64,000 bases of DNA from Verrucomicrobiaceae bacterium. Its GTDB lineage: Bacteria; Verrucomicrobiota; Verrucomicrobiia; Verrucomicrobiales; Verrucomicrobiaceae. The number at the start of each line of letters is the position of its first letter. Within the stretch, counting starts at the first letter, position 1. Both the position numbers and the translations under genes were made by a program. The stretch spans positions 310,001 to 374,000 of the forward strand of contig JAIBCL010000002.1 of the NCBI GenBank assembly GCA_019694165.1. The letters are read 5' to 3'. Below, piece by piece: positions 5,319 through 38,587 of the stretch. The notes beneath the pieces are model-generated. The model saw nothing but the letters and a program-made list of their open reading frames with translations. It was not told where the DNA came from and made no database searches.

Positions 5319-5365
5319 TCGGCTGCTCGACCGGGAGTGCGGGAAGTCCGCGCCAACGCAAGGCT

Positions 5366-10456: not shown

Positions 10457-10561
10457 GCACCACCGATAAAAGCCGTGGCCGGTGATGCAAAAGAAAATCC
10501 TCCGGCCTCGCCCGTCTGAGCGCCGAAGCGGACACGAGGTCCGCGAATCCGAATGCCGTCG

Positions 10562-10849
10562 TCAGATGCGCACGCGGATTCCAAGCACGGGGCCGCGGAA
10601 AAGCGGCGCACGACCATACGGCCGGTGAGCCACCAACACCGGGTGCCGGCGTACGGGTCCTCGCGCAATCAGCCGGTGCACGGGCCGGCGCACGCCAGGA
10701 CGAGCAGCAGCGATCCGCCCGACGACATGGTGATGGCGGTGCGCGAGTGCAACGCCGTGCCGGTGCCTCGGCGGTGCGGCTTCGGATTGTGTCGGCACGG
10801 CCACACAAAAGACCGCTGCCAATGCCAGAGTGGTGAGAATGCGATTCAT
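10562..10849 (-). CDS. small secreted His/Arg-rich protein
   Basis: 95 residues from ATG 10849. A signal peptide (MNRILTTLALAAVFCVAVPT, cleavage near SEA-A) is followed by a short mature part rich in His, Arg, Pro and Val, including HRHHHV. No domain is recognised. A metal-binding or polyanion-binding role would suit the composition but is speculative. It is transcribed divergently from the large kinase gene. Confidence 0.5.
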   Translation of the reverse strand: MNRILTTLALAAVFCVAVPTQSEAAPPRHRHGVALAHRHHHVVGRIAAARPGVRRPVHRLIARGPVRRHPVLVAHRPYGRAPLFRGPVLGIRVRI

Positions 10850-10911
10850 GGTTTTGCTGAGTTGGGGTTGACTGTCACGCAGGGCCTGTGACCACACGGC
10901 CCCGGTTGTTA

Positions 10912-10927
10912 TTCAAAGTTCTTTGAA
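10912..10927. promoter_or_regulatory. palindrome in divergent intergenic region
   Basis: TTCAAAG-TT-CTTTGAA has perfect 7-bp arms around a 2-bp centre. It lies between the small secreted protein (minus) and the large kinase (plus). The AT-rich dyad in otherwise GC-rich DNA could be an operator serving either gene. No regulator is identified. Confidence 0.35.
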
Positions 10928-11083
10928 ACGACTTCCCGCCCCGTGCTCCGACGGCACGCATACACCGGCAGCCCCGGCGCGATGGTCCCATCCCTGAGAG
11001 CCTGTCCGTCCCGCGTCCGTCGCCCACCCACCGCGATCCGCCGGCCATTTTCCACCTTGCGAGCGGATGCACGTTTGCCCAGA

Positions 11084-14000
11084 ATGCACCGCACTTCACC
11101 GAATCCCCATCTGCTCCCCATGCCCGAAGTCCCTCCACCAGGCTCCACACCCACAGGCTACCAGCGCACGCAGGGCGGCGGCGTGGCGTGGTCGCCGCCG
11201 AGCGCGGCGCATTTGGAGCAATTGCTCCCGCAGTATCACGTCGAGTGCCTGCTCGGGCGCGGCGGCATGGGCGCGGTTTACAAGGGCTTGCAGAAGTCGC
11301 TGGAGCGGCCCGTGGCCATCAAGATTCTGCCGCCCGATCTCGACGACGCCGACGCGAGCTACACGCAGCGTTTCAAGAACGAGGCCAAGCTCATGGCAAA
11401 GATGAACCATCCGGCCATCGTGCATGTGTACGACTACGGCGTGATCGATGGCAGGGCGCTCGCCGCAGGTAGGGCGCTTGCTCCTGCAAGCGCCGCCGGG
11501 ACGCCCCCAGCCTGCGATGCCACGAGAGACGATGGGGACGGCTCCCGGCCTGCCGCGGCGGCTGGAGGACCAGCCGCCCCACCTTCCGGCCCGCCGCTGT
11601 TCTACTTCGTCATGGAGTTCGTCAACGGCACCGACGTGCAGCAGATGATCCAGGCGCAGGGCCGCCTCCCGCCCGAGCACGCACTGGCCGTCACCGCGCA
11701 CGTTTGTGATGCGCTGAAGTATGCGCACGAGCACGGCGTCATCCACCGCGACATCAAGCCGGCCAACGTGCTCATCAACATGGAGGGCGCGGTGAAGGTG
11801 GCCGACTTCGGCTTGGCGAAGGCCAGCGACGGCGGCACCACCGGCATCACCAAGACCGGCATGGCGATGGGCACGCCCGATTACGTCGCGCCCGAGGCGC
11901 TGGTGATGGGCGTGGATGTGGATGCGCGTGCCGACGTTTATGCCGTGGGCGTGATGCTCTACACGATGCTCACCGGCCATGTGCCACGCGGTGCGTTCAA
12001 GCCGCCGTCGGTCATGGTGCCTGGAGTGGACCGGCGCTTCGACGCCATCGTGGAGCGTGCGATGCAAATGAACCGCGACGAGCGCTACCCGGGCGCCGCG
12101 CACATCCGGCGTGATCTTGATGCCATCCTTACCGCACCGCAGGTGCAGGCCGGAGGGCAGAGCAGCGCCGCAGTGCCGCGGCAGGTCGTGGCGCAGAAGC
12201 CCGTGTCCAAAGGACCGCAGAAACCGATGGGCAAGAGCGCGAACGTGCCGGTGGACGGCAGGCGCGTTCGCCAGAACGCGGAGGAGGCTGCCGGCACCCC
12301 GGACCGCACTCTGGCGAGTGCGCCTACGGGCAAGAGCAAGACGCCTCTGCTCATCGGCATCGGAGCCGTCGCCGCCATCGCGGTGGGGGCGTTTGTGATG
12401 ATGGGCGGCGAGGGCAGGCGCGTTCGCCAGAACGCGGAGAGCGCCGCCACCTCAAGCGGAATTCCCTCCGGGGCTGCGCAACTGGCGAGTTCCCCTACGA
12501 GCAGCGCCAAGCCCATCAAAGTGCGCGAGGAGCCGAAGCCAGCCGTCGCGCCCATCTCAAATTCCAAATCGCCGATCTCAAATCCCGCCCCGGCAAAACC
12601 CACGGACCAAACTCTGGCGAGTTCCCCTACGAGCGGCGCTGCCGCGAAGGACAAGTTCCCTCCCGGCCAGTGGGTGAAGGTGTTTACCAAGTTCGAGGAC
12701 TTGCCTGAGGAACTGCGCAAGCCGGACGCCCAGGTCAAGATCGACGACGGCAAATTGACGATCACTTCCACAAATGCACAAAAGATTCTGTGCAGCTCCC
12801 TTGCGTTTTCGAGCGCGGGCATACGAGTGAAGCAATCGCCAAAGAGCGCAGAGACGCAGCTCTCGCTAGCCAGGGAAAGCGATCACACCAGCATCAGGAT
12901 GCTGCTTCGTCCGGGAGTGGATGACATCTACATCCAGCGATGGAAGCCGAATGGAAGCATGGAATTGGCAAGACTCCGGGAGCCACGAGGCGTCGAGCGA
13001 TCCCTCGAACTGGCTGTAGTCGGGAGCACGGTGATCGCTCGAGCGGGTGGGCAGATCAGTCGATCACAAATCCCGCCGTCAGAGGTGATTGCGCCTTTCA
13101 AGCCTGAACTTTACGCGGCAGAAGCTTCACTCCGCGACATCGAAGTCATCAACCTCGACGGCATCCCCGAGGCCGAGGCGTTGAAGCTGATTGGCGTTGA
13201 TGAAAATGGCAACGATCTGCGGGATCCGGCGAAGACCATTGCGTCCTCAACGCCCGCGCCAGCTCCTACATCGTTACCCGTGTCCTCAACATCATCTCAG
13301 GTTCTCCCGCCGCGCGAGATGTTGGAATACAAGCTTCCCTTGTCCGCTCCTCAGCGTCCAAAGCAGCCATGTCGCGTCGTCGTGTGGCGGCTCGATGGCA
13401 AGCCGCTCTCCCAAGAGGAATCGGTTTTGACTCCGCCACCGGACCTCAAGGGCGTCGTTCAAATGGCGGCGTCGAACAGCGGGGACGGCAATGGTGGGTG
13501 GATCACACATGCGGTGGCGTTGAAGGCCGACGGCCACGTCGCCACATGGGGCCAATGCTCGAAGGTAAACGATGTGCCTCGTGATCTGGACAACGTCGTC
13601 AAAGTCGTGGCCGCATCAACTCGTTGCCTCGCGCTTCAAGCCAACGGCAAGCTGCGCACCTGGGGCCAAGTCATCAACCACGTTGAATTGGCCGCTCATC
13701 AGGGCGAGTTCGTTGATGTGACCGCAGCCGATGCTGTTGACATCGGATTGACCAAGAACGGCGAGGCGTTCGGTCGGATGAGCCCCACAGCGAAGGCACG
13801 GCAGAAAGAATTCGGACCGTTTGTCGCCCTTGGCTCGACGAAGTCCGGCTTCTCTCCTGCGATCACTCGCTCCGGTCAGCTCTGTCAATTGCACGTGCCA
13901 GGGGACGAGAGAGTCATGCCGCCAGGCGATTTTCTTCGTCGCCGGTTCACTTCGTGGGTGGTGTTGAGCGGCACCACGCCACGGCGAACGGTGGCTTTTG

Positions 14001-15787
14001 ACGATCAGGGTATCGTCGGAGTCTGGCCCGAATCGCAGGCCGCAGAGTTTGCCGGCATCACGGCCCTTGCCAACTGGGACGACTGCACGGCGATGCGCAA
14101 GACCGACGGCACATGGGTGTTCAAGGCGACGGAAAAACAGATCGATGCGGCTTACTGTGCCGAGCAGGCGAGGGACTGTGTTTCCGTTTCGCTCACGGAC
14201 AAATACGCATTTGGCCTCAAGCCCGAAGCTGTCGTAGCGGCCGCAGCGGCAGCCAAGCAAGCCGACACCATCGCCACGATCCCGGAGCTAAAGACGCTGC
14301 ACGAGCAGTTCGTGAAGCTGCAAGGCGAGCGCGTGACCGCGCCCTTCGAAGCCGATGTAGCGAAGCTGAACACCAGCTACCTCGGCGGTCTCGACCGTGA
14401 GATCGAGAAGGAGAAGAAAGCCGGCCACCTCGACGGCGTGCTGGCGCTTGAGGCGGAGAAAAAGCTGATCGTAGAACGAGCGTCCCGCTCGTCCTCCGAC
14501 GCGAACGAGCGCGACGCTCGCTCTACGACGACACTGCCCATCCCCGCCGAAGACGACGACACCACGCCCGCCAGCCTCAAAGCCCTGCGCAAAATCTACC
14601 GCGAAACTTTTTCCAAACACGAAGCCACGCGCGCCGCCAATCTCAAACAACTCACCGATCCGCTCACGATCCGATTGAAGCAGCTCGAGAGCACCCTCAC
14701 GCAGCAGAACCGCATCAACGAGGCGAAAACCGTGCGGGAGTATCGGGAGTCACTCGATCGGGCGCTCGAAAACGCCGCCGAAGTGTCGCCCTCGAATTTG
14801 ATCCGGAGCGGAACGGACGATTCGTCACTCCCTTTCGTCCCGCCGCTCTCACGCAAGCCGGGCAAGCTTCACGGCTGGGGCCAGTTCCTGAACAAGCCAT
14901 TTGATGTGTCGAAAGCAGAGAAGTATTCCGACTTCGTGCAGGTGGCGCTCACGGATTCGCAGTGGCTGGCGCTCAGGGCCAATGGTGAGACGGTGTCCAC
15001 GGAGGGAGCTTACGACGGGATGAAGGGCGTTTATGCCATCAAAGCCCTCATCAACAATTTCACGTTGATCACCAAGAAGGGAGTGATTGCGACTGCCAAC
15101 GGCACGCGGGAAACCATTGAGCCATCGGCCTGGGGGGGAGGGCGGCTCCGCGATGCGGCGGTGAGTGTTGGCGGGATAGAGGTGTTTGTGCGCGACGATG
15201 GCACTGTGCGGTTGCGGGACACGGGTCTCCGCAAAGGAAAGGCCGCCATTCAGCCCAATAAGGCTCACGATTTCACGAAGGAGATTCGGAACGCGGTTCA
15301 GTGCGCGACAGCGGGCCCGTTCACTTTTGTTCTGACGGCTGACGGGAAGACCTATGGCTGGACCGGCCCTCTGTTCAGCACCGACAAAGTGTCGGACCGA
15401 GATGTCTCACCGGTCGATTTGAGTGCTGTGCCTGCGGATGTACAGTCCATCGGTGCCGCGGCTGGCGGAGGAATCGCCGGGCTACGTTTGACCACCCGTT
15501 CGGGGAGTTACATGGAATTCAATTCACCCTATGACCAACTCAAGTTCGAGTCTGTCACGTTCAACCTTCCGCCTCCACCTGGCAGCGTAAAAGGCATGTC
15601 GATGCAAGGTGGTGGCATGGCTATTCTTCGGCTCAAGACCGGCATGTTTTACAACAATGGTGGCTCGAAAACTTCAGCTCAGATCCGAACCATGCCCGAA
15701 AGTACTGACATCGTAGCTGTCGTGAACACCTTCAATGACGCCAAGCTCGGCCAGGTGAACAACGAGTGCATCTTATGGGTTGAGTAA
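11084..15787 (+). CDS. giant membrane Ser/Thr kinase with RCC1-like repeats
   Basis: 1567 residues from ATG 11084; ATG 11120 is equally possible. PknB-type kinase domain at about 50-345: glycine loop GRGGMG, VAIK lysine, HRDIKPAN near 221, DFGLA and GTPDYVAPE, all intact. A linker of low complexity surrounds one membrane helix at about 420-440 (LLIGIGAVAAIAVGAFVM). The outer part has a beta domain, RCC1-like repeats at about 786-1050 (ALKADGHVATWGQ, ALQANGKLRTWGQ), a coiled-coil segment at about 1066-1205 and a second RCC1-like block at 1260-1567. It is probably a receptor kinase sensing through an extracytoplasmic propeller. The gene is odd in carrying REP palindromes inside coding sequence, one pair within the kinase domain. 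Confidence 0.9.
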   Translation: MHRTSPNPHLLPMPEVPPPGSTPTGYQRTQGGGVAWSPPSAAHLEQLLPQYHVECLLGRGGMGAVYKGLQKSLERPVAIKILPPDLDDADASYTQRFKNEAKLMAKMNHPAIVHVYDYGVIDGRALAAGRALAPASAAGTPPACDATRDDGDGSRPAAAAGGPAAPPSGPPLFYFVMEFVNGTDVQQMIQAQGRLPPEHALAVTAHVCDALKYAHEHGVIHRDIKPANVLINMEGAVKVADFGLAKASDGGTTGITKTGMAMGTPDYVAPEALVMGVDVDARADVYAVGVMLYTMLTGHVPRGAFKPPSVMVPGVDRRFDAIVERAMQMNRDERYPGAAHIRRDLDAILTAPQVQAGGQSSAAVPRQVVAQKPVSKGPQKPMGKSANVPVDGRRVRQNAEEAAGTPDRTLASAPTGKSKTPLLIGIGAVAAIAVGAFVMMGGEGRRVRQNAESAATSSGIPSGAAQLASSPTSSAKPIKVREEPKPAVAPISNSKSPISNPAPAKPTDQTLASSPTSGAAAKDKFPPGQWVKVFTKFEDLPEELRKPDAQVKIDDGKLTITSTNAQKILCSSLAFSSAGIRVKQSPKSAETQLSLARESDHTSIRMLLRPGVDDIYIQRWKPNGSMELARLREPRGVERSLELAVVGSTVIARAGGQISRSQIPPSEVIAPFKPELYAAEASLRDIEVINLDGIPEAEALKLIGVDENGNDLRDPAKTIASSTPAPAPTSLPVSSTSSQVLPPREMLEYKLPLSAPQRPKQPCRVVVWRLDGKPLSQEESVLTPPPDLKGVVQMAASNSGDGNGGWITHAVALKADGHVATWGQCSKVNDVPRDLDNVVKVVAASTRCLALQANGKLRTWGQVINHVELAAHQGEFVDVTAADAVDIGLTKNGEAFGRMSPTAKARQKEFGPFVALGSTKSGFSPAITRSGQLCQLHVPGDERVMPPGDFLRRRFTSWVVLSGTTPRRTVAFDDQGIVGVWPESQAAEFAGITALANWDDCTAMRKTDGTWVFKATEKQIDAAYCAEQARDCVSVSLTDKYAFGLKPEAVVAAAAAAKQADTIATIPELKTLHEQFVKLQGERVTAPFEADVAKLNTSYLGGLDREIEKEKKAGHLDGVLALEAEKKLIVERASRSSSDANERDARSTTTLPIPAEDDDTTPASLKALRKIYRETFSKHEATRAANLKQLTDPLTIRLKQLESTLTQQNRINEAKTVREYRESLDRALENAAEVSPSNLIRSGTDDSSLPFVPPLSRKPGKLHGWGQFLNKPFDVSKAEKYSDFVQVALTDSQWLALRANGETVSTEGAYDGMKGVYAIKALINNFTLITKKGVIATANGTRETIEPSAWGGGRLRDAAVSVGGIEVFVRDDGTVRLRDTGLRKGKAAIQPNKAHDFTKEIRNAVQCATAGPFTFVLTADGKTYGWTGPLFSTDKVSDRDVSPVDLSAVPADVQSIGAAAGGGIAGLRLTTRSGSYMEFNSPYDQLKFESVTFNLPPPPGSVKGMSMQGGGMAILRLKTGMFYNNGGSKTSAQIRTMPESTDIVAVVNTFNDAKLGQVNNECILWVE
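11469..11582. repeat. REP doublet inserted in kinase domain
   Basis: A GTAG head at 11469 is followed by a perfect 9-bp stem (GGCGCTTGC-TCCT-GCAAGCGCC). An inverted partner at 11557-11582 has stem GGCGGCTGG-AGGA-CCAGCCGCC and a GTGG head on the other strand. The block is 114 bp, exactly 38 codons, so the frame is kept. It adds an Ala/Gly/Pro-rich loop between kinase strands beta4 and beta5. Confidence 0.8.
12258..12327. repeat. REP doublet in kinase linker
   Basis: The left unit has stem CGCGTTC-GCCA-GAACGCG. The right, inverted unit has stem GCACTC-TGGC-GAGTGC followed by GCCTAC, that is a GTAG head on the minus strand. Both share the loop GCCA. It is translated as part of the juxtamembrane linker. 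Confidence 0.78.
12414..12498. repeat. second REP doublet in kinase linker
   Basis: The left unit repeats 26 bp of the doublet at 12258 without mismatch (12257-12282 equals 12413-12438). The right unit is an inverted GTAG-headed copy ending at 12498. The doublet falls just after the membrane helix codons. Confidence 0.78.
12600..12630 (-). repeat. single GTAG REP in kinase linker
   Basis: Minus-strand unit with a GTAG head at 12627-12630 and stem AACTC-GCCA-GAGTT. It is the same family as the two preceding doublets. No left partner is visible. Confidence 0.65.
14471..14526. repeat. REP doublet in coiled-coil region
   Basis: It opens with GTAGAACGAGCGTC and closes with GACGCTCGCTCTAC, whose complement is GTAGAGCGAGCGTC, so two GTAG-headed units face each other. 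It is read through as an Arg/Ser/Asp-rich break (VERASRSSSDANERD) in the predicted coiled coil. Confidence 0.78.
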
Positions 15788-23985: not shown

Positions 23986-24354
23986 TCAAAGCTCTCCGAA
24001 GACTTTCTCGCGTACCGTCACGATGGCATCCAGCATGGCGTCCGCCTCCGCGCGCACTTTCTGATCGAGGCTGGATGCGCCGCGATTGTAGCGGCGGTAG
24101 AGGAGCTTCAAGTGCGCGCCGATTTCGTCCTTCGACATTTTCGCGGTGATACCGCACATGTCCTCCGGGGTGACGGGAGCTTTCTTTGGCGGCGGTGCGG
24201 CAGCCGGCTTCGCAGCGGTGACTTTGTCGAGCACACTGCCTTGCTTTGAAGGTCCTGGCGCGGGCTTCGCGGCGGGAGCAGGCGCAGGTTTCGCGGGCGC
24301 GGACTTTCCGCCGCCGAGCGACTTCGAGAGGGATTCCAAGACTCGTTTGAACAT
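23986..24354 (-). CDS. small Ala/Pro-rich linker protein, unknown
   Basis: 122 residues. A short N-terminal amphipathic helix (MFKRVLESLSKSLGGG), an Ala/Pro/Lys-rich linker at about 17-60, then a predicted helical C-terminal domain (VTPEDMCGITAKMSKDEIGA through REKVFGEL). No family is recognised. It is on the same strand 192 bp after the Hsp70 gene and may be the third gene of that unit, perhaps an adaptor; this is position-based inference. Confidence 0.6.
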   Translation of the reverse strand: MFKRVLESLSKSLGGGKSAPAKPAPAPAAKPAPGPSKQGSVLDKVTAAKPAAAPPPKKAPVTPEDMCGITAKMSKDEIGAHLKLLYRRYNRGASSLDQKVRAEADAMLDAIVTVREKVFGEL

Positions 24355-24546: not shown

Positions 24547-26037
24547 TCATTCGATCCGCATCGCCCGCAGATGGTGCGTGCGGCGCTTGAGTTCTTCTTC
24601 GGAAAGCACGCCGGCACCCTTGTAATTCACCGCCAGCTCGCGGGAGCGTCCGGACTGCTTGTCCACCACAAGGGCGCGCACGCGCTGGTTTTCGTCGTAG
24701 CTGAAGGTGACGGCGATCTCGCAGCCCTTCGGGCGGTTCGGCGGCACGTCGAGCGTCAGGCGGCCGATGACATCGACGAACTTCGGGTCCTCGTCCTCGC
24801 CCTGTGTGATGTCCACCTCGATGAGCTTTTCGTTGTCCTCGCTCGTCAGATACATCTGCGTGCGCGAACAAGGGATGGGCGTGTTCTTCGGGATGACCAC
24901 GGAGTTCTGGAGTTTTTCCTCACCGGTGGCCGCGTTGTAGATCATCGCCAGCGTCCCGTAGCTGGCATTGCACACCTCCTGAATGCGGCCGGATTTCCTG
25001 GCGAAGAGCGCGGCGCCGAGCGCCACGCACTCGTCCACATTGCCGCACGACTTGGGCGCCTTGGCGAAGTACTTTTCCAGCATGGTCTTCACCTTCGGCA
25101 GGCGCGTGCTGCCGCCGACGAGCACCACATGGTCGATGTCCGATGGCTTGAGCTTCACGGAGTCGAGCGCCTGCTCCACCAGCATGATGGTACGCGTGAG
25201 CATGCGGCGCACCATTTTCTCGAAGCCCTCGCGCGTGAGGTCGATGCGTGCAATGCCGCCGTCCTTGTCGTTGGCGATGGTGTCGTTCACGCGCTGGAGC
25301 TTCGAGAGCATCTTCTTCGCGTCTTCCGCGGCCTGGAGCACGCGGCGGCGGTGGCGCTCATCGGAGAAAAGCTCCGCGCCGGTCTGCTTGCGGTACTGCT
25401 CCTCGTAGGCGGTGAGCAGGATTTCGTCGAAGTTCCCGCCCCCGAGATGCCGCGCGCCTTCGGACGTGAGAATCTTGATGTTGTCACCACTCACTTCGAG
25501 GACCGTCACGTCCAGAGTGCCGCCGCCGAGGTCATACACGAGCACGCGGCCCTGCACGCCCTGGTTGTGCGCATAGTAAACCGCGGCTGCCGTCGGCTCG
25601 TTCACCAGCCGCTTCACTTTCATGCCGGCCATCTCCGCGGCAGCAATGGTGCTCTTGCGCGCCAGCTCGTTGAAGTTGGCCGGCACGGTGATCACGACTT
25701 CATCGATGTCGCCGATGATGCGCGAGCAGTCGCGCTTGAGCTTCGCGAGGATGAGCGCGGAGATTTCGGAGGGCGTCCACTTTTTGCCGTCGATGTCGAT
25801 CAGATGCTCCGGATCGTCCATGTGGCGCTTGATCTGGAAGATCGTGCGGTCGGGATCGCCGCCGTCGCGCGCGGCGCTGCCGACGAGCTTCACGTCCTCA
25901 TGCGCGTCGAAGTACACCACCGAGGGCGTCAGGCGCTCGCCATCCGCATTGGGCACGATCTCCGGGTTGCCGTCAGATTTCAGGTAAGCCAGCCCCGAGA
26001 GCGTGGTGCCGAGATCGATTCCTACAAATTGAGCCAT
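24547..26037 (-). CDS. lidless Hsp70/DnaK-family protein
   Basis: 496 residues against about 640 for DnaK. The nucleotide-binding domain is intact: GIDLGTTLSGLAY, ITVPANFNELARKST, LVNEPTAAAVYYAHN, VYDLGGGTLDVTVLEV and VLVGGSTRLPKV. A short beta-sandwich substrate-binding domain follows (VVIPKNTPIPCSRTQMYLTS onward). The chain stops at about the point where the helical lid would start, ending LSEEELKRRTHHLRAMRIE. Such short Hsp70s usually work with dedicated partners rather than as general foldases. It starts 39 bp after the giant FHA/coiled-coil gene, whose C-terminus looks GrpE-like. Confidence 0.93.
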   Translation of the reverse strand: MAQFVGIDLGTTLSGLAYLKSDGNPEIVPNADGERLTPSVVYFDAHEDVKLVGSAARDGGDPDRTIFQIKRHMDDPEHLIDIDGKKWTPSEISALILAKLKRDCSRIIGDIDEVVITVPANFNELARKSTIAAAEMAGMKVKRLVNEPTAAAVYYAHNQGVQGRVLVYDLGGGTLDVTVLEVSGDNIKILTSEGARHLGGGNFDEILLTAYEEQYRKQTGAELFSDERHRRRVLQAAEDAKKMLSKLQRVNDTIANDKDGGIARIDLTREGFEKMVRRMLTRTIMLVEQALDSVKLKPSDIDHVVLVGGSTRLPKVKTMLEKYFAKAPKSCGNVDECVALGAALFARKSGRIQEVCNASYGTLAMIYNAATGEEKLQNSVVIPKNTPIPCSRTQMYLTSEDNEKLIEVDITQGEDEDPKFVDVIGRLTLDVPPNRPKGCEIAVTFSYDENQRVRALVVDKQSGRSRELAVNYKGAGVLSEEELKRRTHHLRAMRIE

Positions 26038-26076: not shown

Positions 26077-29000
26077 TTACTGGCTTGAGGTCCTCACCTC
26101 CACCTTGCGGAGGATTACCTCGCGGCCGTCAGGGTGCGAATAAATAAAGCCTGGCCGGTAGTTCTCAATCACCTTCGCCTTCGACTTGCCCGGCACGCTG
26201 TCCACGATGGTGATGCGGTGCCGCAGTGCCACGTCCACCTCCGTGCCGGCGGCGACCTCGAATTCCGTGACGCCGTGCTGGTGCAGGATGTCCTCGAACG
26301 AAGCACGCAGCGTGCGGAGCTGCTGGTCGATGCCGCCGCCGTTCACTCCTGCATAGCGCTGGATGAGCACGTCGATCAAATCGAGACGTTTGATGAGATC
26401 GTTGGCAAAGATCAGCACGGTGGCCTCCTCGGTCGGCAGGCCGCGGCGCATGACCTCGTGCTTCTCTTCGAGTTCCATGAGCTGCCCGCGCAGCCGCTTC
26501 TCGATCTCCTGCCACTGCTTCATCTTCGCCTCGGCCGCGGCATAGTCGCCCTTGCGCTTCTCCATGGCGGCGAGGTCGCCCTGCAGCTTCTCGACGGACG
26601 CCACGCCCTGCTTCTCCACACCGGCCAGATCGTGTATGCGCCGCTCGAGGGCCTCGACGTTCGCCCGGCGCTCGAGATCGGCCTTCTCCAGCAGGTCGGC
26701 CTGCCGCTGCAGCTCCGCTTCGTATTTGCGGAACTCCGCCTCCGCCGCCGCACGCCGGTCGCGGTCGGTCTTCTCGAAGGCTTCCGCCTGCTTCTGCAAA
26801 TCCGCCGCAAATTTCTTGAACTCGGCCTCAGCGGCCACGCGGCGCTCCGCACCGGACTGCTCCAACACGTCCGCCTGCCGTTGCAGATCCGCGGCATATT
26901 TCTTCAACTCCGCCTCGCCGGCCGCGCGCTCCTTCTTGATCTGCTCCATGCGCGCCAGCTCGCGGCTGAAGGTCTCCTGGAGCGTGTTGAGCTTCACCTG
27001 CAGCGCCAGCTCCTGCTCCGCCGCCTCCTTGAGCGACTTGCTCGTCTCCTGCTGGCGTGACTCCACCATCGAGAGCGCCTCGCTCATCGACATGAGCCGC
27101 CCCCCCGTGTGCGTGATCTCGGCAAACTGTGCTTCCACCGCCTTGATGCGGGCCTTGCCTCCCTCGCACTCCGCCTCCAGGGCGCGCACCTGCTCACGCT
27201 GCGCCTCGATCGTCTTCGCCAGCCGCTCTTCGTCCGCCTTCAGGCTCTGCACGCGGTCCAGCCGTGCGCGCATCTCGTCGTCGATGCCGCTGGCCTGCTT
27301 GCGGGCGGTTTCGAGGGTCTTGCGGTGCTCGTCGGTCTGTTTCTTCAAGTCCGCCAGCGCCGCCGCCGCGGACTCGTGCGCCTCCTGCACCGCCTTGAGC
27401 TTCGCATTCATGGCGTCCACTTCCTGCTGCGTCTTCATCACGCGGTCCTCGCGGATGCGGTGCGCCTCCTCTAGGGTGGAAATGTTAGCCTGCAAGTCGG
27501 CGAGCTTTTTCTTCGAGCCTTCGGTATCGACGTTCAGTCGGGTGACGAATTGAGAGGTCTCGTCCCGCTGCTTCGCCACCGTGGCCAGCTCGGCCCGCGC
27601 AGCCGCCAGCTCCTTCGTGAGCGCGGGGATGTCCTTCTTCAACTGCTTCTCCTCCGCACGCGCGGCCTCCAGCGCCTGCTCGGCTGCGGCGCGCTTTGTC
27701 TCGGCCTGCTCGAGCACCGCGGCCGCCTTCTCGACGCGCTTCTCCGCATCGGCGCAGCGGGTCTCCTCGGCCTTCGCGCGCTTCGCGAGATCGTCGCCCT
27801 TCGCCTTCTCATCCGCCGACTTTTGCGTCAATGCTGCCAGGTCCGACTGCAGCCTTGCCTGCTGTTTCGCAAGATCGGCGAGCGTCTTTTCTTCCGCGAG
27901 GCGCTGGCGCTCCGCCTCCTTCAAGCCCGTGGTCGCATTCGCCAGACGGCTCTCGACATCCCCGAGCTGCGTGAGCCGCTTCTCAAGCGACTCCACCTTC
28001 GGCGCCAGTTCCGCGAGGCGGGTTTCAGTCCGCTTCATCGTCTCCAGCCTGCCGGCTGTCTCGGCGTCCAAAGTCTTGCGCTTCTCCGCGATGCTGGCGT
28101 CCAGTCCGGCCGACTCCGCGCGCAGTGTTTCGAGCTGCTTTGCCGCCGCATCTTGCTCGGCGCGTGATTTCGCCTGCACCGACTCCAAATCCGCCGCCGC
28201 CTTCTTCAGAGCGGCGGCGGTTTCCTCGCGTTGCTTCTCCAGCGCGGCCAGCTCATCGCGCGCACGTTTCGCATCGGCCCCGAAGCGTGCCACCTCGGCC
28301 TCGAGTTCACCCTTCTGCTTCTTCAGCGCTTCTGCCTGCGGCTGCAGCTCTTTGGTTTCACCTGAGAGCTTCTCGAACAACGTCTGCACGTCCTTGAGCC
28401 GCCCATCCGTGTCCGCCAGTGCCGCGAGTTTCTTCTCAATCTCCGAATTCTGTTTCGCGAGGTCTCCACAGCGCTTCCTGGCTTCGGCCTCCTGATCTTC
28501 GAGAACGACGACGCTCGCGCGCTTCGCCTCCAAGGCATCCTCGACGCGCCGGAGTTCCTCCAAGGTCGTGGCGATCTTCTTCTGCTGATCGCGCTCGTCG
28601 TTCACGAGTTTCGCCACGGCGGCTTCGAGCACCGACGATTTCTGCTGCACTTCGTTCCATGAAGCATTGTGCTTCACAAACAATGCCTCGGCCTCGGCCG
28701 CGGCCTTTTGATTCATCGCAGCCAGTTGCGCCGTCTGCTCCAGCTCGCTCCTGGCCTTTGTAATCTGCGCCTGCAGGGCGTCGATCTCGCCCCTCAACTC
28801 GTCGCGCGATTTTTCGAGTCGCGCGCTCTCGTCGGCGAGCGACTTCGCCCGCCCGTCACTTTCTGCCAGCGACTTGCCGGCAGCCTCCACGCGCGCCGTC
28901 AGTTTCCCCATTTCGTCCTCCAAATCCGCGCGCTGCGTCTCCGCCTGCTGCACGGCGGACTCCGCCGCCGCGCGACGGGACTGGAGAGACTTCACCAGCG

Positions 29001-32000
29001 CGTGCTGCGCTGATCCCTGCTCAGCCAGCGTCTCGAGTTCGGCAGTCTTCGCATTCTTTTTGTCTTCGAGATCGGCGATCACCGACTCAAGCTGCGAGCA
29101 CTGCGCCTCAGCCCGCTTGAATGCCTTGTCAGCGTCACGCGCACGTTCCTCCGCGTCATCAGCTTCCGCACGTCTCGCAGCCAAAGCGGCCTCCGCTACC
29201 TGGATGCGATCTTTGTGCTGGGATTCTGTCGCCGCCAGGCCCAGCACCGCGGCTTCGAGCGCCGCGGCCTTGTCCTTCAAATCCTTCCAGCCCGACTCGT
29301 GTTGAGCAAACAGCGCCGAAGCCGCCGTCGCAGCCTCATGCTTCTCGGCGTGCAGCTTCGTCGCCTCGTCGAGTTCCCGCCGCACACGCGCGATCTGCTC
29401 GTGCAGCGCGGTCGCCTGCGTCTCGGCCTCGGTCCTAGCCCGCTCAGCTTTCTCCGCATCGGCGGTGAGCGCCGCGAGCCGCTCCTCGGTCTTCCTGGCG
29501 AGTTCCTGCTGCGTGCGCAGGAGGCTCTCCACGTCCACCAACTTCGCCTGCGCGGCCTGCATCTGGCGCGCGGCCTCCTGGTGCTGGTGTTCCGCATCCG
29601 CGACGGCCTTCGCCTTGCCGTCGATCTGAGACTGCGCGTGCTCGAGATCAGCCCGCGTCTGCGTAAGCTTCAGCGTCGTCTGCTTCAACTGCTCGTCAGC
29701 GGTCGTCCGCTTTTTCTCAAGCTGCTGCCCCTCGTCCGCAAGCGCCTGCAATCGCTGCTCCGCCTCTCCCAGGAGCTGCTGCCGGGAAACAAGCAACGCC
29801 TGCGCCTCAGCCAGCTTCTTCTCTGCCTCCTGTGTCTGGGCGGTGACCGACTTCACCTTCGCATCCGCGTCAGCGGCGGCCTTCTGGTTCTCGGCCGACT
29901 GCTTCGTGGCGGCATTGAGTTCCTCCCTCGCCTTCGCAAGCAGCACCGTGAGCGCCTGCAATTCCTCACCGGCCTTCGCGCGCTTCGTCTCCGCATCGCG
30001 GCTGTCTGCATCGAGCGACTTCGCACGCTGCTCGGCCACCGAGACGAGCTGCTGCTGTGAAGCGAGCGCCGCCTGTACTTCAGCAAGCTTCTTCTCGCCC
30101 GCCTGCACGCGCTCCTCGATGTCCTTCACCCTCGCCTCCGCTTCGGACGCCGCCTGCTTCTTCTCCGCGCTGACTTTCGTCGCCGCATCGAGATCGGCCT
30201 TCGCCTTCGCCAGTTCCGCCGTCAGCGATTCAAGCTGGCCGCTCGCTTCACCGCGCCGCTGCTCGATCTGCCGCGTCTCGTCGGCGAGGTCCTTCAATCG
30301 TTGCCCGGCCTCCGCCACGAGTCGCTGCTTCGACTCCAGCGCGCCCGCCGCTTCCGTGTGCGAACTCTGCGCCGTGGCGAGCAAGGCGGAGACGGCCTGA
30401 TGCTTCGAGTCGGTTTCCTTGAGCGCCGACTCGGTTTCCTCATGGCGCTTTGCCAGCGTTTTCAACAGCGCGTGCTGGGCCGCGCCCTGCTCGGTGAGCT
30501 TCGCCAGCTCCTCGCTCTTCGACTCGCGCTGCTGGTTGAGGCTCACGACGAGCGCGGCCAGCTCCGTGCGCTGCGCTTCCACGGCCTTGAGCGCCTTGCT
30601 TGCATCGCCGAGTCGCGAATCAGTCGCGGCGAGTTCGTCCAGCTTCTTCGTCAGCTCGGCCTCGCGCACTTTGAGTTTCTCGACACGGACCTCGACCTCC
30701 TGCAGTTCGTTCGTCTTCGCGGCGATCGCCGTCTGTGACTCGGCGGTGCGCGCCTTCAGCGTCGCCTCGGTCGCGGTGATCTGCCCGCGCAATTCTCCGA
30801 GCTGTGCTGCCTGCGCGGCGGCCTCCTGCTTTGTCTTCTCGACCGATGCACGCGCATCGTCGAGCTGCCTGGTCACCTGCGTGAGCGTCTGGCTTTTCTG
30901 CTCCGCCTCGCGCACGCGCGCCTCCGCTTCGACTGCGTTCTTCGTCAGTTCAGAGATGCGCGACTCAAGACCGGCCGCGTTCTTGCGCAGCGAAGCAAGC
31001 TGGTGCTCCGCCAGCTCCTTCTCCGCGGCGAGCTGGCGCGCCTGCGTCTCGATGGACTGGCGCTCTTCGCGAGCGGCCTGCGCCTCGGCGCGCCGTTGCG
31101 CGAGGAGCTTCTCCACGCTGGCCATCTCGCTCTGTGTCGTCTTGTGCTGCCCGAGCAGGGCGGCCAGCGCCATCTCAGCGGCGGACTTCTTCGACTCCAG
31201 ATCACCCAGCGACTTCGATACATGGCCGAGCTGCTGCTGCGTGCCGCTGAGTTCCGACACACGCACCTCGTGCCGCGTGATCTCGCCCTGCACGTTCTTC
31301 AACCGCGCCTCCGCAGACTGCGCCGCGGCCTGTGCGTCGGCCAGACGCTGCTCCGCCTTCGCGGCCTCCGCCTGAGTCCTTGTGATGTGCGACTGCGCAT
31401 CAGCATCGCTCTTCTGCAGATCGCCAATGCGCTTCTCAAGCTCGCGCAGCTCTCCCTGGCGCGCGTCATGCCGTCCGTTCAGCGATGCGAGCGCGGCTTC
31501 AAGCTCGCTCTTCTTTGATTCCAGATCAGCCAGCGCCCGTGTAATGCCGCCGAGCTTCTGCTGCGTGCCGGAGAGTTCCGTGACCTTCGCCTCGTGCGCG
31601 ACGGCCTCCGTGCGCAGGGCACCGAGCCGCCCCTCCGCCCCTGCCACCTCGGCGCGCAATTCCGCCAGCCGTTTTTCCAACGACGAGACCTCGCCGCGCT
31701 TCGCCGCCTCGTCTCCCATCAAAGCCGCCAGCGCCGCATCGAGCGCGCCCTTCTTCGACTCCGCATCCGCCAGCGACTTGGCCGCACCACCGAGCCGCTG
31801 CTCCAAACCCGCCAGTTCGGCCGCCTTGCCTTCGCGCTCCGCGATGTCCTTCGCCAGCGCAGCCGCACGGGCTTCCGCCGCGGCAATCTCGCGTGCGATC
31901 TCGTCACGCCGCCTTTGCGCCTCCGTGGCGGACTTCTCGTCGGCAGACTGCTTTGCCGCCAATGCCGCGACCGCGGCATCAAGCGCGCCGCGCTTCGATT

Positions 32001-33243
32001 CAAGTTCGGCGAGCGACGATTCGAGCACGCCACGCTTCGCCTCCAATTCGGTGAGCGACGAGCCGAGCGTCGCACGCTTCGACTCCAGTTCCGCCACCGA
32101 TGCCGCCACGCCGCCGAGCTTTGCATGCTCTCCGGACAAGGAGGCCACCCTCGCCTCCTGCGAGGCTGCCTGCTGCCGGACAGCAGCCAGTTGCGCCTCG
32201 GCTGCGGCGATGTCATCGCGCAGTGACGCCGCACGTTTCGCGGCTTCCTGTTCCTCCGCCGCAAAGCGCCCGGCCTGATCTTGTTGCGCCTTCGCGCTCT
32301 CGGCGGCGCGCGAGCGGCTGGCTTCGGCATCGCGCTGCGCGGTGGCAACGTCCTTGCGGGCCGATTCGATGCCTGATTGCAACGCCGAGAGTTCCGCCTT
32401 CGCGGCAGCGACTGCGGCGACGGATGACTCCAGCTCTGACTTGTTCTTCGCAAGCGCAGCGGCCTCCGCCTTCAATCCGGCGAGCTTCGCGGCGGTTTCA
32501 TCCGCATCCTTCTTCCCACGGGCAAGTTCTTCGTCCCGGGCCGCCCGCGCCGCTTCACGTTCGCGCTTGAGCTTCTCGATCTCTTCGCGGAGAGCCGCGG
32601 CTTCGGCGGCGGTCGCGCCTGCTGGCGATGCCGGAGGTGTCACGCCTGCTGGCGGTGGCGGCGGCTTCGTTGCCAGCGTGGCTGCCGGCGTCTGGCCTGC
32701 GACCGAAGGCTTTGGCAGCGGCACGGTGGAAGGCGGCGGTGGAGGGGGCTTCGCCGGCGCACGGGAGAGCGGCGCCTTCGTCGGCTCCACCTTCGATGTA
32801 TCGGGAGCCGGCACTTCCGGCGCGGGCGCGATGGTGAGCGGCTCCTTCACCCGCACAGACTCTGTATCTCCGCGGCGTCCATCCGTGCGGGCGGGCTCCG
32901 CCTTCGCGGAAGGCGCGGCCTTCAGCGTCTCGGACGAGGTGGAGTCTTTCGCCGCACGATCCCGGAAGCGCGCGTGAAGCTGGCCGAAGCTGACCTTGTC
33001 ACCGCCCTTCACCCGGGCGCGGGTGACACGCTTGCCGTTGACGAAGGTGCCGTTGGAGGACTTCAGGTCCACCACCTCGTAGGTGCCGTCCGGCTGGCGG
33101 ACAAACTCCGAGTGAAAGCCCGAGATGAAAGTGTTGTCGATGACGATGTCGTTGCTGGCATCACGCCCGAGGGAAAGCCGGTCCTCAAGCAAATCGAAGA
33201 CGAACTCATTGCCGTCGTTGAGATTGAAAGCCAGATAAGGCAT
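26077..33243 (-). CDS. giant FHA / coiled-coil protein with GrpE-like C-terminus
   Basis: 2388 residues. N-terminal FHA domain at about 1-95, with LGRDASNDIVID, the S-x-x-H of ISGFHSEF and SSNGTFVNGKRV: all phosphothreonine-binding positions are kept. A Pro-rich linker (about 105-215) includes KPPPPPPSTVP. About 2,050 residues of Ala/Glu/Lys/Gln heptads follow, with internal repeats: LGG-x-ALADLESKK-type units of about 100 residues, and three 30-residue copies of EFKKFAADLQKQAEAFEK type near the end. The last 115 residues (LIKRLDLIDVLIQRYAGVNG, ILHQHGVTEFEVAAGTEVDV, ENYRPGFIYS, EVILRKVEV) follow the GrpE pattern of helices plus beta domain. It is probably a filamentous scaffold that docks to the adjacent Hsp70. 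It is intact. Confidence 0.92.
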   Translation of the reverse strand: MPYLAFNLNDGNEFVFDLLEDRLSLGRDASNDIVIDNTFISGFHSEFVRQPDGTYEVVDLKSSNGTFVNGKRVTRARVKGGDKVSFGQLHARFRDRAAKDSTSSETLKAAPSAKAEPARTDGRRGDTESVRVKEPLTIAPAPEVPAPDTSKVEPTKAPLSRAPAKPPPPPPSTVPLPKPSVAGQTPAATLATKPPPPPAGVTPPASPAGATAAEAAALREEIEKLKREREAARAARDEELARGKKDADETAAKLAGLKAEAAALAKNKSELESSVAAVAAAKAELSALQSGIESARKDVATAQRDAEASRSRAAESAKAQQDQAGRFAAEEQEAAKRAASLRDDIAAAEAQLAAVRQQAASQEARVASLSGEHAKLGGVAASVAELESKRATLGSSLTELEAKRGVLESSLAELESKRGALDAAVAALAAKQSADEKSATEAQRRRDEIAREIAAAEARAAALAKDIAEREGKAAELAGLEQRLGGAAKSLADAESKKGALDAALAALMGDEAAKRGEVSSLEKRLAELRAEVAGAEGRLGALRTEAVAHEAKVTELSGTQQKLGGITRALADLESKKSELEAALASLNGRHDARQGELRELEKRIGDLQKSDADAQSHITRTQAEAAKAEQRLADAQAAAQSAEARLKNVQGEITRHEVRVSELSGTQQQLGHVSKSLGDLESKKSAAEMALAALLGQHKTTQSEMASVEKLLAQRRAEAQAAREERQSIETQARQLAAEKELAEHQLASLRKNAAGLESRISELTKNAVEAEARVREAEQKSQTLTQVTRQLDDARASVEKTKQEAAAQAAQLGELRGQITATEATLKARTAESQTAIAAKTNELQEVEVRVEKLKVREAELTKKLDELAATDSRLGDASKALKAVEAQRTELAALVVSLNQQRESKSEELAKLTEQGAAQHALLKTLAKRHEETESALKETDSKHQAVSALLATAQSSHTEAAGALESKQRLVAEAGQRLKDLADETRQIEQRRGEASGQLESLTAELAKAKADLDAATKVSAEKKQAASEAEARVKDIEERVQAGEKKLAEVQAALASQQQLVSVAEQRAKSLDADSRDAETKRAKAGEELQALTVLLAKAREELNAATKQSAENQKAAADADAKVKSVTAQTQEAEKKLAEAQALLVSRQQLLGEAEQRLQALADEGQQLEKKRTTADEQLKQTTLKLTQTRADLEHAQSQIDGKAKAVADAEHQHQEAARQMQAAQAKLVDVESLLRTQQELARKTEERLAALTADAEKAERARTEAETQATALHEQIARVRRELDEATKLHAEKHEAATAASALFAQHESGWKDLKDKAAALEAAVLGLAATESQHKDRIQVAEAALAARRAEADDAEERARDADKAFKRAEAQCSQLESVIADLEDKKNAKTAELETLAEQGSAQHALVKSLQSRRAAAESAVQQAETQRADLEDEMGKLTARVEAAGKSLAESDGRAKSLADESARLEKSRDELRGEIDALQAQITKARSELEQTAQLAAMNQKAAAEAEALFVKHNASWNEVQQKSSVLEAAVAKLVNDERDQQKKIATTLEELRRVEDALEAKRASVVVLEDQEAEARKRCGDLAKQNSEIEKKLAALADTDGRLKDVQTLFEKLSGETKELQPQAEALKKQKGELEAEVARFGADAKRARDELAALEKQREETAAALKKAAADLESVQAKSRAEQDAAAKQLETLRAESAGLDASIAEKRKTLDAETAGRLETMKRTETRLAELAPKVESLEKRLTQLGDVESRLANATTGLKEAERQRLAEEKTLADLAKQQARLQSDLAALTQKSADEKAKGDDLAKRAKAEETRCADAEKRVEKAAAVLEQAETKRAAAEQALEAARAEEKQLKKDIPALTKELAAARAELATVAKQRDETSQFVTRLNVDTEGSKKKLADLQANISTLEEAHRIREDRVMKTQQEVDAMNAKLKAVQEAHESAAAALADLKKQTDEHRKTLETARKQASGIDDEMRARLDRVQSLKADEERLAKTIEAQREQVRALEAECEGGKARIKAVEAQFAEITHTGGRLMSMSEALSMVESRQQETSKSLKEAAEQELALQVKLNTLQETFSRELARMEQIKKERAAGEAELKKYAADLQRQADVLEQSGAERRVAAEAEFKKFAADLQKQAEAFEKTDRDRRAAAEAEFRKYEAELQRQADLLEKADLERRANVEALERRIHDLAGVEKQGVASVEKLQGDLAAMEKRKGDYAAAEAKMKQWQEIEKRLRGQLMELEEKHEVMRRGLPTEEATVLIFANDLIKRLDLIDVLIQRYAGVNGGGIDQQLRTLRASFEDILHQHGVTEFEVAAGTEVDVALRHRITIVDSVPGKSKAKVIENYRPGFIYSHPDGREVILRKVEVRTSSQ

Positions 33244-36292: not shown

Positions 36293-36321
36293 TTGCAAAG
36301 TTGCGCCGTATTTTGTAGAAT
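36293..36321 (+). promoter_or_regulatory. promoter of pseudokinase (and possibly tubulin) unit
   Basis: TTGCAA (36293-36298), a 17-bp spacer and TAGAAT (36316-36321), inside an AT-rich stretch (about 36230-36370) unlike the surrounding GC-rich DNA. Apart from this promoter region, the 347 bp between 36045 and 36391 hold nothing I recognise. The -35 box coincides with the only far-upstream TTG start-like codon, so translation must begin downstream. Confidence 0.6.
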
Positions 36322-36391
36322 TTTCTCTCGACAGCGAAGGTTGAATTTTGTTTTCTTAAAAACTCCCTCGATTCCTCAGTTTCAAAAAGCC

Positions 36392-38587
36392 GTGCCGCCC
36401 GCCAACACCCTATCTGCAACGAGCCAGCCTGAGCAGGAGAGGTTTGATCATTACCTCATCGCGCGAAATCGCGACGGTCAGCCGATTCAGTTGTCGCGAT
36501 CAAGCGACGAGTCGGCATTTTTGGCGTTCGATCTGCACTCGCGGCGGCTGGTAGAATTGCACGTCATTCACGGCGGTCACAATGACGACCCGGCCCGGAG
36601 GCGCTCGTCCTACGAGCGAGCTGTGCAGGCTGGTGAACTCCGCGGAGGAAGCTTTCCCCGAATTCTCGAGGTGGGAGAAGACGACGGACTGGTTTACTAC
36701 TCCAGCACGCTGAACGATGGGGAGTTTGTGGAAGACTACATCGCGCGACGAGGCGCACTGCCGCCGGCGACGGCCTTCTGCATGCTGCTGCAACTGCTGG
36801 AGGACCTCGTCCCTCTTCAAAGCTACCACCGGCTGGTGTCCAGGCTGCGGCTGAACCGCCTGCTGGTCACCGCACTGGAGGACACATTCCTGCACCTGCG
36901 AGCATATGACTACGGGCTGGCGGAAAAGGAGCAGCGCTCCGATGGCGACCACAAGCGCCTCGCCGCCGAAGTGTGCGAGCTGATCTTCCTCCTGCTCACC
37001 GGCAAGACCTACGGTGGCGACAATCCGGACCGCTATCCGGCGCTCACCTGCCTGCCGTCGGGCTTGCGTACGACCTTGCGCACGGTGCTCCCTGACAAGT
37101 CGCAGGCCCCCTCGACACTGGAGAAGCTGCGTGATGACGTGCGCGAAGCATTCGCGGCGCTGGTGAGCAACTTGCAGACCCGCAGTACCCGCAAGCATGT
37201 GGTGGTCACCAATGAAAACGCGCTGCCGAAATCCCAACTCCAGGATCTGCTGCTCGAGAGCATCCCGCTCGATGCGCTGCTCACAGGCCGCTTCACCGTT
37301 GAAAACGCGGACATCGCACGCCGCTATCCGTTCTCCATTCCGGCGCGCAATTTGAAGAACGACCAGCCGGTCACCGTACACCTGCTGCCTCCGTCACGCA
37401 TCGTGCCGAAAGATCACTACGAGGCCGTGCCCTTGCAGATGTGGCGTTTCGATCCGCAGAAGCATCCGAACATCCTGCGCTCGCTCAGCGTGTGGGAGAA
37501 TCCGGACTGGACGTTCCTCACCGAGGAGCGCGAGGGCGGCTTCGCCCTCAGCCGCCTCATTGCCGAGCGAATCACGCTGAATCCGGCGGAGGTGCTCGTG
37601 CTGCTGAAACAAGTTCGCGACGGCATCGGCCAGGCGCTTGAGTGCGGCGTGCAGCGTGTGGACCTCCATCCGTCAAACATGGTGCTCCTGCTCGCCAAGG
37701 CGGCAACGATGCAGCAGCGTGAATTTGACCGGCTCATGCAGAAGCGCATCGACGCCTGGCCGCCGTTCAAGCTCAAGCTGCGCCCGCATCTAACGATGCG
37801 CAGCCTCTACGAGCCGCTGCTTGCCGACCTGCCCTCCATGGGCGCGCAACACGATCAGGATTTCCGCAGCCGCTCCTTCGTCGCGCTGGCGGCTTATATG
37901 CTCACCGGTGAGCGCCTGAGCGGCCGCTCGATCGAGTTCCCCGAGACTGTGCCACAGCCGCTCGCCCAATACATCGCCTCGGCGCTCGAACTCGCACGCA
38001 CGCCGGACGCCACCCCGACTCCTGACGAGTTCCTCGCCGGTTTTGAAAAGCTCGCCGCCACCTCCGACCAAAGTGGTCTGGACGCCGGCTTCCTCCGTGG
38101 CCCGGCCGTGGCGCACGCGGACATGGAGAGCGCCGGTTCCGTTTCCGATTTCGACGAAGATGCGGGCGACACCGGGCAGGCGCCTGCTTTTGTTCCGTCG
38201 AAGTACCAACCGCGCGCGTTCGGCATCGGGCGCGAGCCGCCGAAAAAGAAGAGAGCGGCTGCAATCTTGATCTGGGGCGGCGTCGCTGCGGCGCTGATTG
38301 TAACGATTGTCGCGCTGACTGCGGGCGACTCGAGTCCCCCCGCGACACAGGACGGCACGAATGCAGTCGCTTCTGCGGATGGTGCGCCCGCTAACGCCAG
38401 TGGCGCGCAACCCGCGAAGCCACAGGGAGCGGCAAAAAAGATGCTCATCATGATTCGCAAAGCCATCATCCCCACCCGTGAAGAGATCGACGATCTGCGC
38501 CGCAAACAGGCCGAGGCACTCAAGACCGAGCGCGAGGCAGCGATGAAACCGGAAGGAAAGCTCGCCGAACGCAGCTCGGCTCAATGA
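36392..38587 (+). CDS. tandem pseudokinase with C-terminal membrane helix
   Basis: 731 residues from GTG 36392, chosen because upstream codons overlap the promoter. Two degenerate kinase-like domains follow each other. The first has LRAYDYGLA in place of the DFG region and no HRD. The second has GVQRVDLHPSNMVLLL, resembling the HRDxxPxN catalytic loop, but no glycine loop, catalytic Lys or DFG that I can find. Near residues 621-643 is a single membrane helix (AAILIWGGVAAALIVTIVAL) preceded by KKKR, then a short Ala-rich stretch and a charged helix (EEIDDLRRKQAEALKTER). It ends 144 bp before btubA on the same strand. A regulatory or scaffolding role is likely. No catalytic activity is expected. 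Confidence 0.75.
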   Translation: MPPANTLSATSQPEQERFDHYLIARNRDGQPIQLSRSSDESAFLAFDLHSRRLVELHVIHGGHNDDPARRRSSYERAVQAGELRGGSFPRILEVGEDDGLVYYSSTLNDGEFVEDYIARRGALPPATAFCMLLQLLEDLVPLQSYHRLVSRLRLNRLLVTALEDTFLHLRAYDYGLAEKEQRSDGDHKRLAAEVCELIFLLLTGKTYGGDNPDRYPALTCLPSGLRTTLRTVLPDKSQAPSTLEKLRDDVREAFAALVSNLQTRSTRKHVVVTNENALPKSQLQDLLLESIPLDALLTGRFTVENADIARRYPFSIPARNLKNDQPVTVHLLPPSRIVPKDHYEAVPLQMWRFDPQKHPNILRSLSVWENPDWTFLTEEREGGFALSRLIAERITLNPAEVLVLLKQVRDGIGQALECGVQRVDLHPSNMVLLLAKAATMQQREFDRLMQKRIDAWPPFKLKLRPHLTMRSLYEPLLADLPSMGAQHDQDFRSRSFVALAAYMLTGERLSGRSIEFPETVPQPLAQYIASALELARTPDATPTPDEFLAGFEKLAATSDQSGLDAGFLRGPAVAHADMESAGSVSDFDEDAGDTGQAPAFVPSKYQPRAFGIGREPPKKKRAAAILIWGGVAAALIVTIVALTAGDSSPPATQDGTNAVASADGAPANASGAQPAKPQGAAKKMLIMIRKAIIPTREEIDDLRRKQAEALKTEREAAMKPEGKLAERSSAQ

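Follow-up and report, generated by a model that had tools for sequence, protein, structure and literature searches.

The window analysed here is a stretch of 64,000 nucleotides from a Verrucomicrobiaceae contig, and one of its genes encodes an Hsp70 that ends where the helical lid would begin. This raises the question of whether the gene is a truncated chaperone or part of a dedicated system, and with which partners its product would work. A preliminary description of the DNA, made from the sequence alone, had paired the Hsp70 with a private GrpE-like partner encoded upstream, had seen no J-domain gene nearby, and had suggested a switch bound to a coiled-coil scaffold. The features considered are the following.

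23986 to 24354, reverse strand: protein of 122 aa with a basic hydrophobic N-terminus, a Pro/Ala-rich linker, and a C-terminal J-like domain without HPD; it adjoins the Hsp70 in 71 of 76 loci
23989 to 24183, reverse strand: J-like domain (aa 58 to 122) of three helices, assigned from the AF2 model, Foldseek, shuffles, and the Anaerolineaceae contig L139 as a bridge
24547 to 26037, reverse strand: lidless Hsp70 of 496 aa, assigned from PF00012, from alignment A3 (29 sequences, one common end), and from the residue map
24955 to 24978, reverse strand: non-canonical interdomain linker EVCNASYG (aa 354 to 361), replacing E. coli DVLLLDVT
26077 to 33243, reverse strand: protein of 2388 aa with an N-terminal FHA domain, a long coiled coil, and a C-terminal GrpE-like domain (Pfam; coiled-coil matches of the SMC/Rad50 type)
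26137 to 26568, reverse strand: GrpE-like domain (aa 2226 to 2369; PF01025, 25.8 bits, exactly the Pfam cut-off; AF2; Foldseek)
32983 to 33174, reverse strand: FHA domain (aa 24 to 87; PF00498, 2.1e-17) with the GR...SxxH...NG pattern

The Hsp70 lacks the lid and has an altered linker

The Hsp70 matches PF00012 with 342 bits (cut-off, 20.6) over profile positions 2 to 509 of 599, and solved DnaKs align with it up to about residue 485 to 490. Because both matches end there, the helical lid is absent, as had been supposed. Simple truncation of the gene is ruled out, since the 29 aligned orthologues share the C-terminal end and no full-length copy occurs in the 76 listed loci. The features of the Hsp70 superfamily are present, with a full NBD, SBD-beta, and the catalytic residues; the equivalents of E. 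coli DnaK D8, T11, K70, E171, D194, T199, and D201 are kept in all 29 orthologues, and the ATPase motifs were thus correctly described as intact. The SBD-alpha lid, a feature of the DnaK equivalogs, is missing, and the scores fall far under the corresponding NCBIfam cut-offs (364 versus 648 bits and 354 versus 822 bits).

The term lidless is correct for this protein but incomplete, as the linker and part of the surface that receives HPD are replaced as well. Where DnaK has the hydrophobic DVLLLD, the Hsp70 has EVCNxS/G. In E. coli DnaK numbering, L390 is C in 28 of 29 orthologues, L391 is N in all 29, and D393 is S or G in all 29; the C and N are also present in all four distant copies described below. 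Q378 is changed to F or Y throughout the 29 orthologues. R167 is R in every one of the 29 Verrucomicrobiales sequences and G in the four distant copies, and N170 and T173 are kept as well. The peptide-pocket positions are mostly hydrophobic (V436 to I/L, I438 to V, and F426 to Y/F). According to PMC8215388, H33 of E. coli DnaJ contacts the backbone of DnaK L391, and D35 contacts R167 and Q378. With HPD lost from the J-like family and Q378, L391, and D393 changed on the Hsp70, trigger and receiver have changed together. R167 is the exception in Verrucomicrobiales, being kept although HPD is gone. DnaK without its lid has faster on and off rates (PMC7083937, citing older work), and the missing lid would likewise be expected to give this Hsp70 fast client exchange.

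The upstream protein ends in a GrpE-like domain

The upstream gene lies 39 bp from the Hsp70 gene, and that its product ends in a GrpE-like domain, as first described, was confirmed by a structural model as well as by the Pfam match at the cut-off. An AF2 model of the last 209 aa, built from an alignment of 28 sequences, had a pLDDT of 92.8. Rows 1 to 9 of the Foldseek search with this model were all GrpE or GRPEL1, seven of them with an E of ≤0.001, and the remainder were unrelated; the significant structural matches were GrpE/GRPEL1 chains only. The model contains the long helix, helical pair, and beta domain of the GrpE fold. A profile of the domain finds Geobacillus GrpE (4ani; E, 2.4e-5), a match second in trust only to some de novo helical proteins matching the coiled part, and G186, R200, and V204 do not vary in the domain alignment. 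Judged by its modeled fold, this is a genuine GrpE-like domain.

At the other end of the protein, a regular expression for the FHA pattern (GR, SxxH, and NG) matched 23 of 26 homologues, and the three misses are divergent or one-letter departures. At L104 (8268 to 9152, reverse strand), an FHA and a GrpE-like domain are joined in 294 aa with almost no coiled coil, compared with 2388 aa in the window. As this short form shows, the design can do without a long coiled coil.

The downstream protein has a J-like domain without HPD

The preliminary description missed the next gene, which starts 192 bp downstream of the Hsp70 and encodes an HPD-less J-like domain, so its statement that no J-domain gene is nearby does not hold. 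In the AF2 model (pLDDT, 88.9), the last 65 aa form helices at positions 6 to 10, 18 to 36, and 41 to 62, and N33-R34-G35 stands at the place of HPD in DnaJ. None of the 26 family members has HPD, with N at the H position, and the motif is also absent from the three distant copies (L137, L138, and L245). HPD is considered indispensable for the stimulation of Hsp70s by J-domains (PMC8215388).

The three helices of the model follow the J order, and rows 1 to 12 of the Foldseek search with the domain were all J-domains, at E-values of only 0.4 to 1.3. In the VIA search, J-domain proteins took rows 1 to 5 (Z, 6.7 to 6.0; for row 2, P58-IPK, the aligned part was taken to be its J-domain) and Tim16 (2guz_B; Z, 5.9) came eighth. 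Such values could be within reach of any common helical arrangement. It is possible that the small protein belongs to a TIM16-type or other family outside the VIA list. Pfam DnaJ matched none of the 26 members, and the small protein gave weak TPR-like matches at most.

The window family alone aligned to J-domains with an hhalign probability of 7%, and direct probabilities ranged from 7 to 76%. In profile alignments against 65 J-domains, each with 200 column shuffles, the Verrucomicrobiales set scored 17.9 (shuffle maximum, 16.6), the set including the distant copies 22.3 (18.1), and the distant copies alone 28.5 (15.7). These direct scores are supportive rather than proof, because column-shuffled controls do not imitate real helical proteins. 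A firmer connection came from L139, an Anaerolineaceae contig encoding two zinc-ribbon proteins whose N-termini score 34.1 and 32.6 bits against Pfam DnaJ (cut-off, 27.8), neither with HPD at the motif's place. The second of these (14461; 32.6 bits) aligned over the whole domain to the combined set of window family and distant copies (probability, 93.5%; E, 2.3e-7), scoring far above 150 shuffles, and to J-domains with a probability of 96.9%. The first failed to align with the window family (0.5%). By sequence comparison, the J-like family is linked to true J-domains, and is their kin, through this relative from the Chloroflexota.

Neither TerB, as judged by Pfam, nor a long hydrophobic stretch was found in the window's small protein. 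The hydrophobic moment of its N-terminus is not significant in most copies, so a membrane anchor on this protein is only a guess.

Conservation of the three genes among relatives

We surveyed 115 related genomes and found 76 lidless Hsp70 loci in 75 of them, some rows being fragments at contig ends. The aligned orthologues are 59 to 91% identical. Of the 76 loci, 71 have the J-like gene immediately downstream of the Hsp70, and the remaining five are situated where contigs end or are broken; 59 have the GrpE-like gene immediately upstream of the Hsp70. Median gaps are 43 bp between Hsp70 and J-like genes and 48 bp between GrpE-like and Hsp70 genes. The J-like gene was matched in 77 of 115 genomes at an E of ≤0.01 (75 with weak rows set aside), 73 of them together with the Hsp70. 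It occurs without the Hsp70 in G052 and G071, and the Hsp70 occurs without it in G106 and G109, in both cases at contig ends. Hsp70 and GrpE-like genes occur together in 68 genomes, the Hsp70 without a detected GrpE-like domain in 7 of 75, and the GrpE-like gene alone in 8; 30 of the 115 genomes have none of the three genes. A survey of this kind had been proposed as a check on the private partnership. A conserved neighbourhood was found and a full-length Hsp70 was not, and the GrpE-like partner is upheld in this respect, but the J-like gene is the most tightly linked partner of the Hsp70 and the GrpE-like gene the looser one.

The eight genomes with an FHA-GrpE protein and no lidless Hsp70 are G012, G072, G021, G048, G059, G067, G089, and G095; G012 and G072 are single contigs, and some others are incomplete assemblies or weak matches. 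At the G012 locus (L093; C1, 1660000 to 1676000), the FHA-coiled-coil-GrpE gene is kept, and the 16 kb around it contain no lidless Hsp70 or J-like gene. In G073, an FHA protein without a GrpE-like domain takes the place of the GrpE-like gene.

Apart from these genes, no neighbour recurs in more than 6 of the 28 loci examined. Between the three genes, no promoter-like sites were found (0.3 expected), and terminators were no more frequent than in shuffles. A search for the lidless Hsp70 on plasmids returned only ordinary Hsp70s of <60% identity. Assignment to a known defence system was rejected: PADLOC matched the Hsp70 once, weakly (14.9 bits), and matched neither the J-like protein nor the short FHA-GrpE protein of L104. 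The g12 lineages of the order have none of the three genes. A record titled Akkermansia muciniphila (L134) contains an Hsp70 that is 86% identical, at coordinates matching G045 from the window's own family; the title may belong to a mislabelled MAG, as genomes of genus g12 lack the gene.

Distant versions of the set

The order of GrpE-like protein, lidless Hsp70, and a longer protein ending in a J-like domain was also found in a Phycisphaerae contig (L137), a Kiritimatiellae contig (L138, also G352), and another family of the window's class (L245, from G273). A search with the small-domain profile of the window recovers the three J-like domains at E-values of 1.8e-9, 3.3e-8, and 1.1e-5, respectively. 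Pfam recognised TerB in the J-like proteins of L137 (1e-6) and L138 (4.6e-12) and gave no TerB match in that of L245, and a long hydrophobic N-terminal stretch is probably a membrane anchor in all three. GrpE was weakly recognised in L138 (6e-4) and L245 (0.01); the L137 protein had no Pfam match and was found by the family profile (1.7e-7). FHA was not matched in the GrpE-like proteins of these three loci. The coiled-coil scaffold of the preliminary description is therefore accurate for the window, where FHA, coiled coil, and GrpE are joined, but it does not extend to the system at large, given these proteins and the short form of L104.

In a tree of Hsp70s, all 33 lidless copies, from PVC bacteria, formed one clade (support, 100/98), separate from DnaK and from those paralogues of the window genome that were included. 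The window genome's own dnaK (L001), whose longest frame was antisense, and outgroup rows L140, L146, L154, L157, and L164 (antisense frames) are excluded from this tree.

At L138, the second of two tandem lidless Hsp70s (5312 to 6907, forward strand; G352, C143) has D8 changed to Q, T11 to N, and K70 to R. With these catalytic residues lost, an active and a probably inactive Hsp70 lie side by side. The L139 cluster (9980 to 15450, forward strand) encodes a 515-aa lidless Hsp70, an SPFH/Band 7 protein, and the two zinc-ribbon proteins described above, and possibly represents a second branch of such systems. In a Planctomycetota contig (L155, 9388 to 11527, forward strand), a canonical-looking GrpE (62 bits) is followed after 4 bp by a lidless Hsp70 of 516 aa, and no J-domain gene was noticed nearby.

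Proposed mechanism and alternatives

The composition, gene order, and conservation of the set in the surveyed sequences are consistent with a dedicated Hsp70 machine whose three classical components have all been rewired together, giving a nucleotide switch, a J-like partner for it, and an exchange factor docked through FHA. We put the probability of this reading at roughly 60%; the activity, a complex of the products, and a client are what we infer from it. The J-like protein would stay with the Hsp70 as a partner, in the way that Zuo1 pairs with Ssz1, rather than act as a hit-and-run trigger of its ATPase. The GrpE-like domain would reset the nucleotide state of the Hsp70, and the FHA domain would dock this exchange factor on a Thr-phosphorylated target. 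With such docking, exchange, and with it the hold of the Hsp70 on a fast-exchanging client or partner, is proposed to be local and phospho-dependent. The earlier suggestion that the Hsp70 acts as a switch would fit here. Against the rewired machine stand the FHA-GrpE proteins without a lidless Hsp70 (8 of 115 genomes), the Hsp70 genomes without a detectable GrpE-like domain (7 of 75), the retention of R167, and the weak alignment of the window J-like family alone to J-domains. A bolder form of the proposal, in which the HPD-triggered cycle has been abandoned, the J-like protein is a permanent subunit with which the linker and HPD receptor co-evolved, and the FHA-placed GrpE sets the cycle of a phospho-controlled switch that is not a folding chaperone, is held only tentatively.

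The set might instead be an ordinary specialised Hsp70 system with a normal, only faster, lidless substrate cycle driven by the J-like and GrpE-like proteins, possibly helped by HPD-bearing J-proteins encoded elsewhere. The retained catalytic residues together with R167, N170, and T173, the mostly hydrophobic peptide pocket, and the other J-domain proteins of the genome (five matches) agree with this, but the replacement of the VLLLD linker and Q378, which are parts of the trigger path, in all copies and the keeping of an HPD-less J beside the Hsp70 in each lineage make it rather unlikely. We regard as improbable the idea that the FHA-coiled-coil-GrpE protein works separately, as a scaffold in structure or signalling for the ordinary DnaK, with a regulatory rather than physical reason for its adjacency to the lidless Hsp70. 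The eight genomes having the FHA-GrpE protein without the lidless Hsp70, and about ten in which the genes are on different contigs, would suit it; adjacency in 59 of 76 loci with a 48-bp median gap argues for a closer relation, as do the three distant loci, where the GrpE-like protein adjoins the Hsp70 without an FHA match. That the downstream protein is an unrelated three-helix adaptor with convergent J likeness is about as improbable. Such an adaptor could account for the Foldseek E-values of 0.4 or worse, a VIA Z of 6.7 within the range of common helical arrangements, and the absence of Pfam DnaJ matches from all 26 members, but not readily for the gene's position beside an Hsp70, for J-domain scores exceeding all 200 column shuffles for three alignments, or for the L139 protein 14461, which both passes Pfam DnaJ and aligns to the family. 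The reading as a rewired machine is preferred to these three.

Comparison with known systems

DjlA has a hydrophobic N-terminus, TerB, and a C-terminal J-domain, in that order. The J-like proteins of L137 and L138 resemble this membrane protein in having a hydrophobic N-terminus, TerB, and a C-terminal J-like domain; unlike it, they have lost HPD, and the window copy is without TerB and a long hydrophobic stretch. In the eukaryotic ribosome-associated complex, Ssz1 is without the SBD-alpha lid, has a unique interdomain linker, and forms a stable pair with the J-protein Zuo1 (PMC7083937). Unlike the window Hsp70, which keeps the residues predicted for catalysis, Ssz1 does not hydrolyse ATP, and the J-domain of Zuo1 serves another Hsp70, Ssb; the window set further differs in its HPD-less J-like domain and in including a GrpE-like domain. 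Pam16/Tim16 and TbPam18 likewise have a J-fold without a working HPD and are partners in, or derived from, an Hsp70 motor (PMC11349236), whereas the window protein is bacterial, is encoded beside a lidless Hsp70, and has no HPD-bearing sister in the cluster.

Two bacterial systems share other traits. In M. xanthus, MxDnaK2 and MXAN_6672 (the pair SglK/GrpS) are an Hsp70 paralogue and the GrpE homologue that shares its operon and binds it; in contrast to the window Hsp70, MxDnaK2 is described with domain swaps including SBD-alpha and so is not lidless, and its operon has neither an FHA fusion nor an HPD-less J as far as it is described in PMC11019930. About 14% of the conflict systems centred on a GAP1-N2 GTPase carry an Hsp70, a GrpE, and a DnaJ fusion, sometimes with a second Hsp70 without the peptide-binding domain. 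Those systems have a GTPase core and FNIII-DnaJ (PMC7159879), whereas the window Hsp70 keeps SBD-beta. As for a TRAFAC GTPase of the GAP1-N2 type, no neighbour gene, the neighbours not being named by family, was common to more than 6 of the 28 loci. No description of the three-part set was found on searching the full text of an open-access library.

This conserved set has lost HPD together with its receptor residues, the linker, and the lid but has kept the ATPase residues. It offers a natural test of which couplings the Hsp70 cycle needs, and would be a bacterial counterpart to Ssz1/Zuo1 and Pam16. With the exception of the scaffold, the genes are small enough for purification and assay.

Related genes in the window genome

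The window genome (7.8 Mb, 66 contigs) has eight whole or partial PF00012 matches, one canonical GrpE besides the GrpE-like domain, and five J-domain matches, of which four pass the cut-off. A further Hsp70 of this genome, very divergent (L005; G000, C54, 15158 to 16576), seemingly also ends without a lid. Elsewhere in the window, a gene at 36293 to 38587 on the forward strand encodes a protein of 764 aa with two weak protein-kinase-like stretches (Pfam, below the cut-off; PADLOC PD-T4-6, ≤43 bits).
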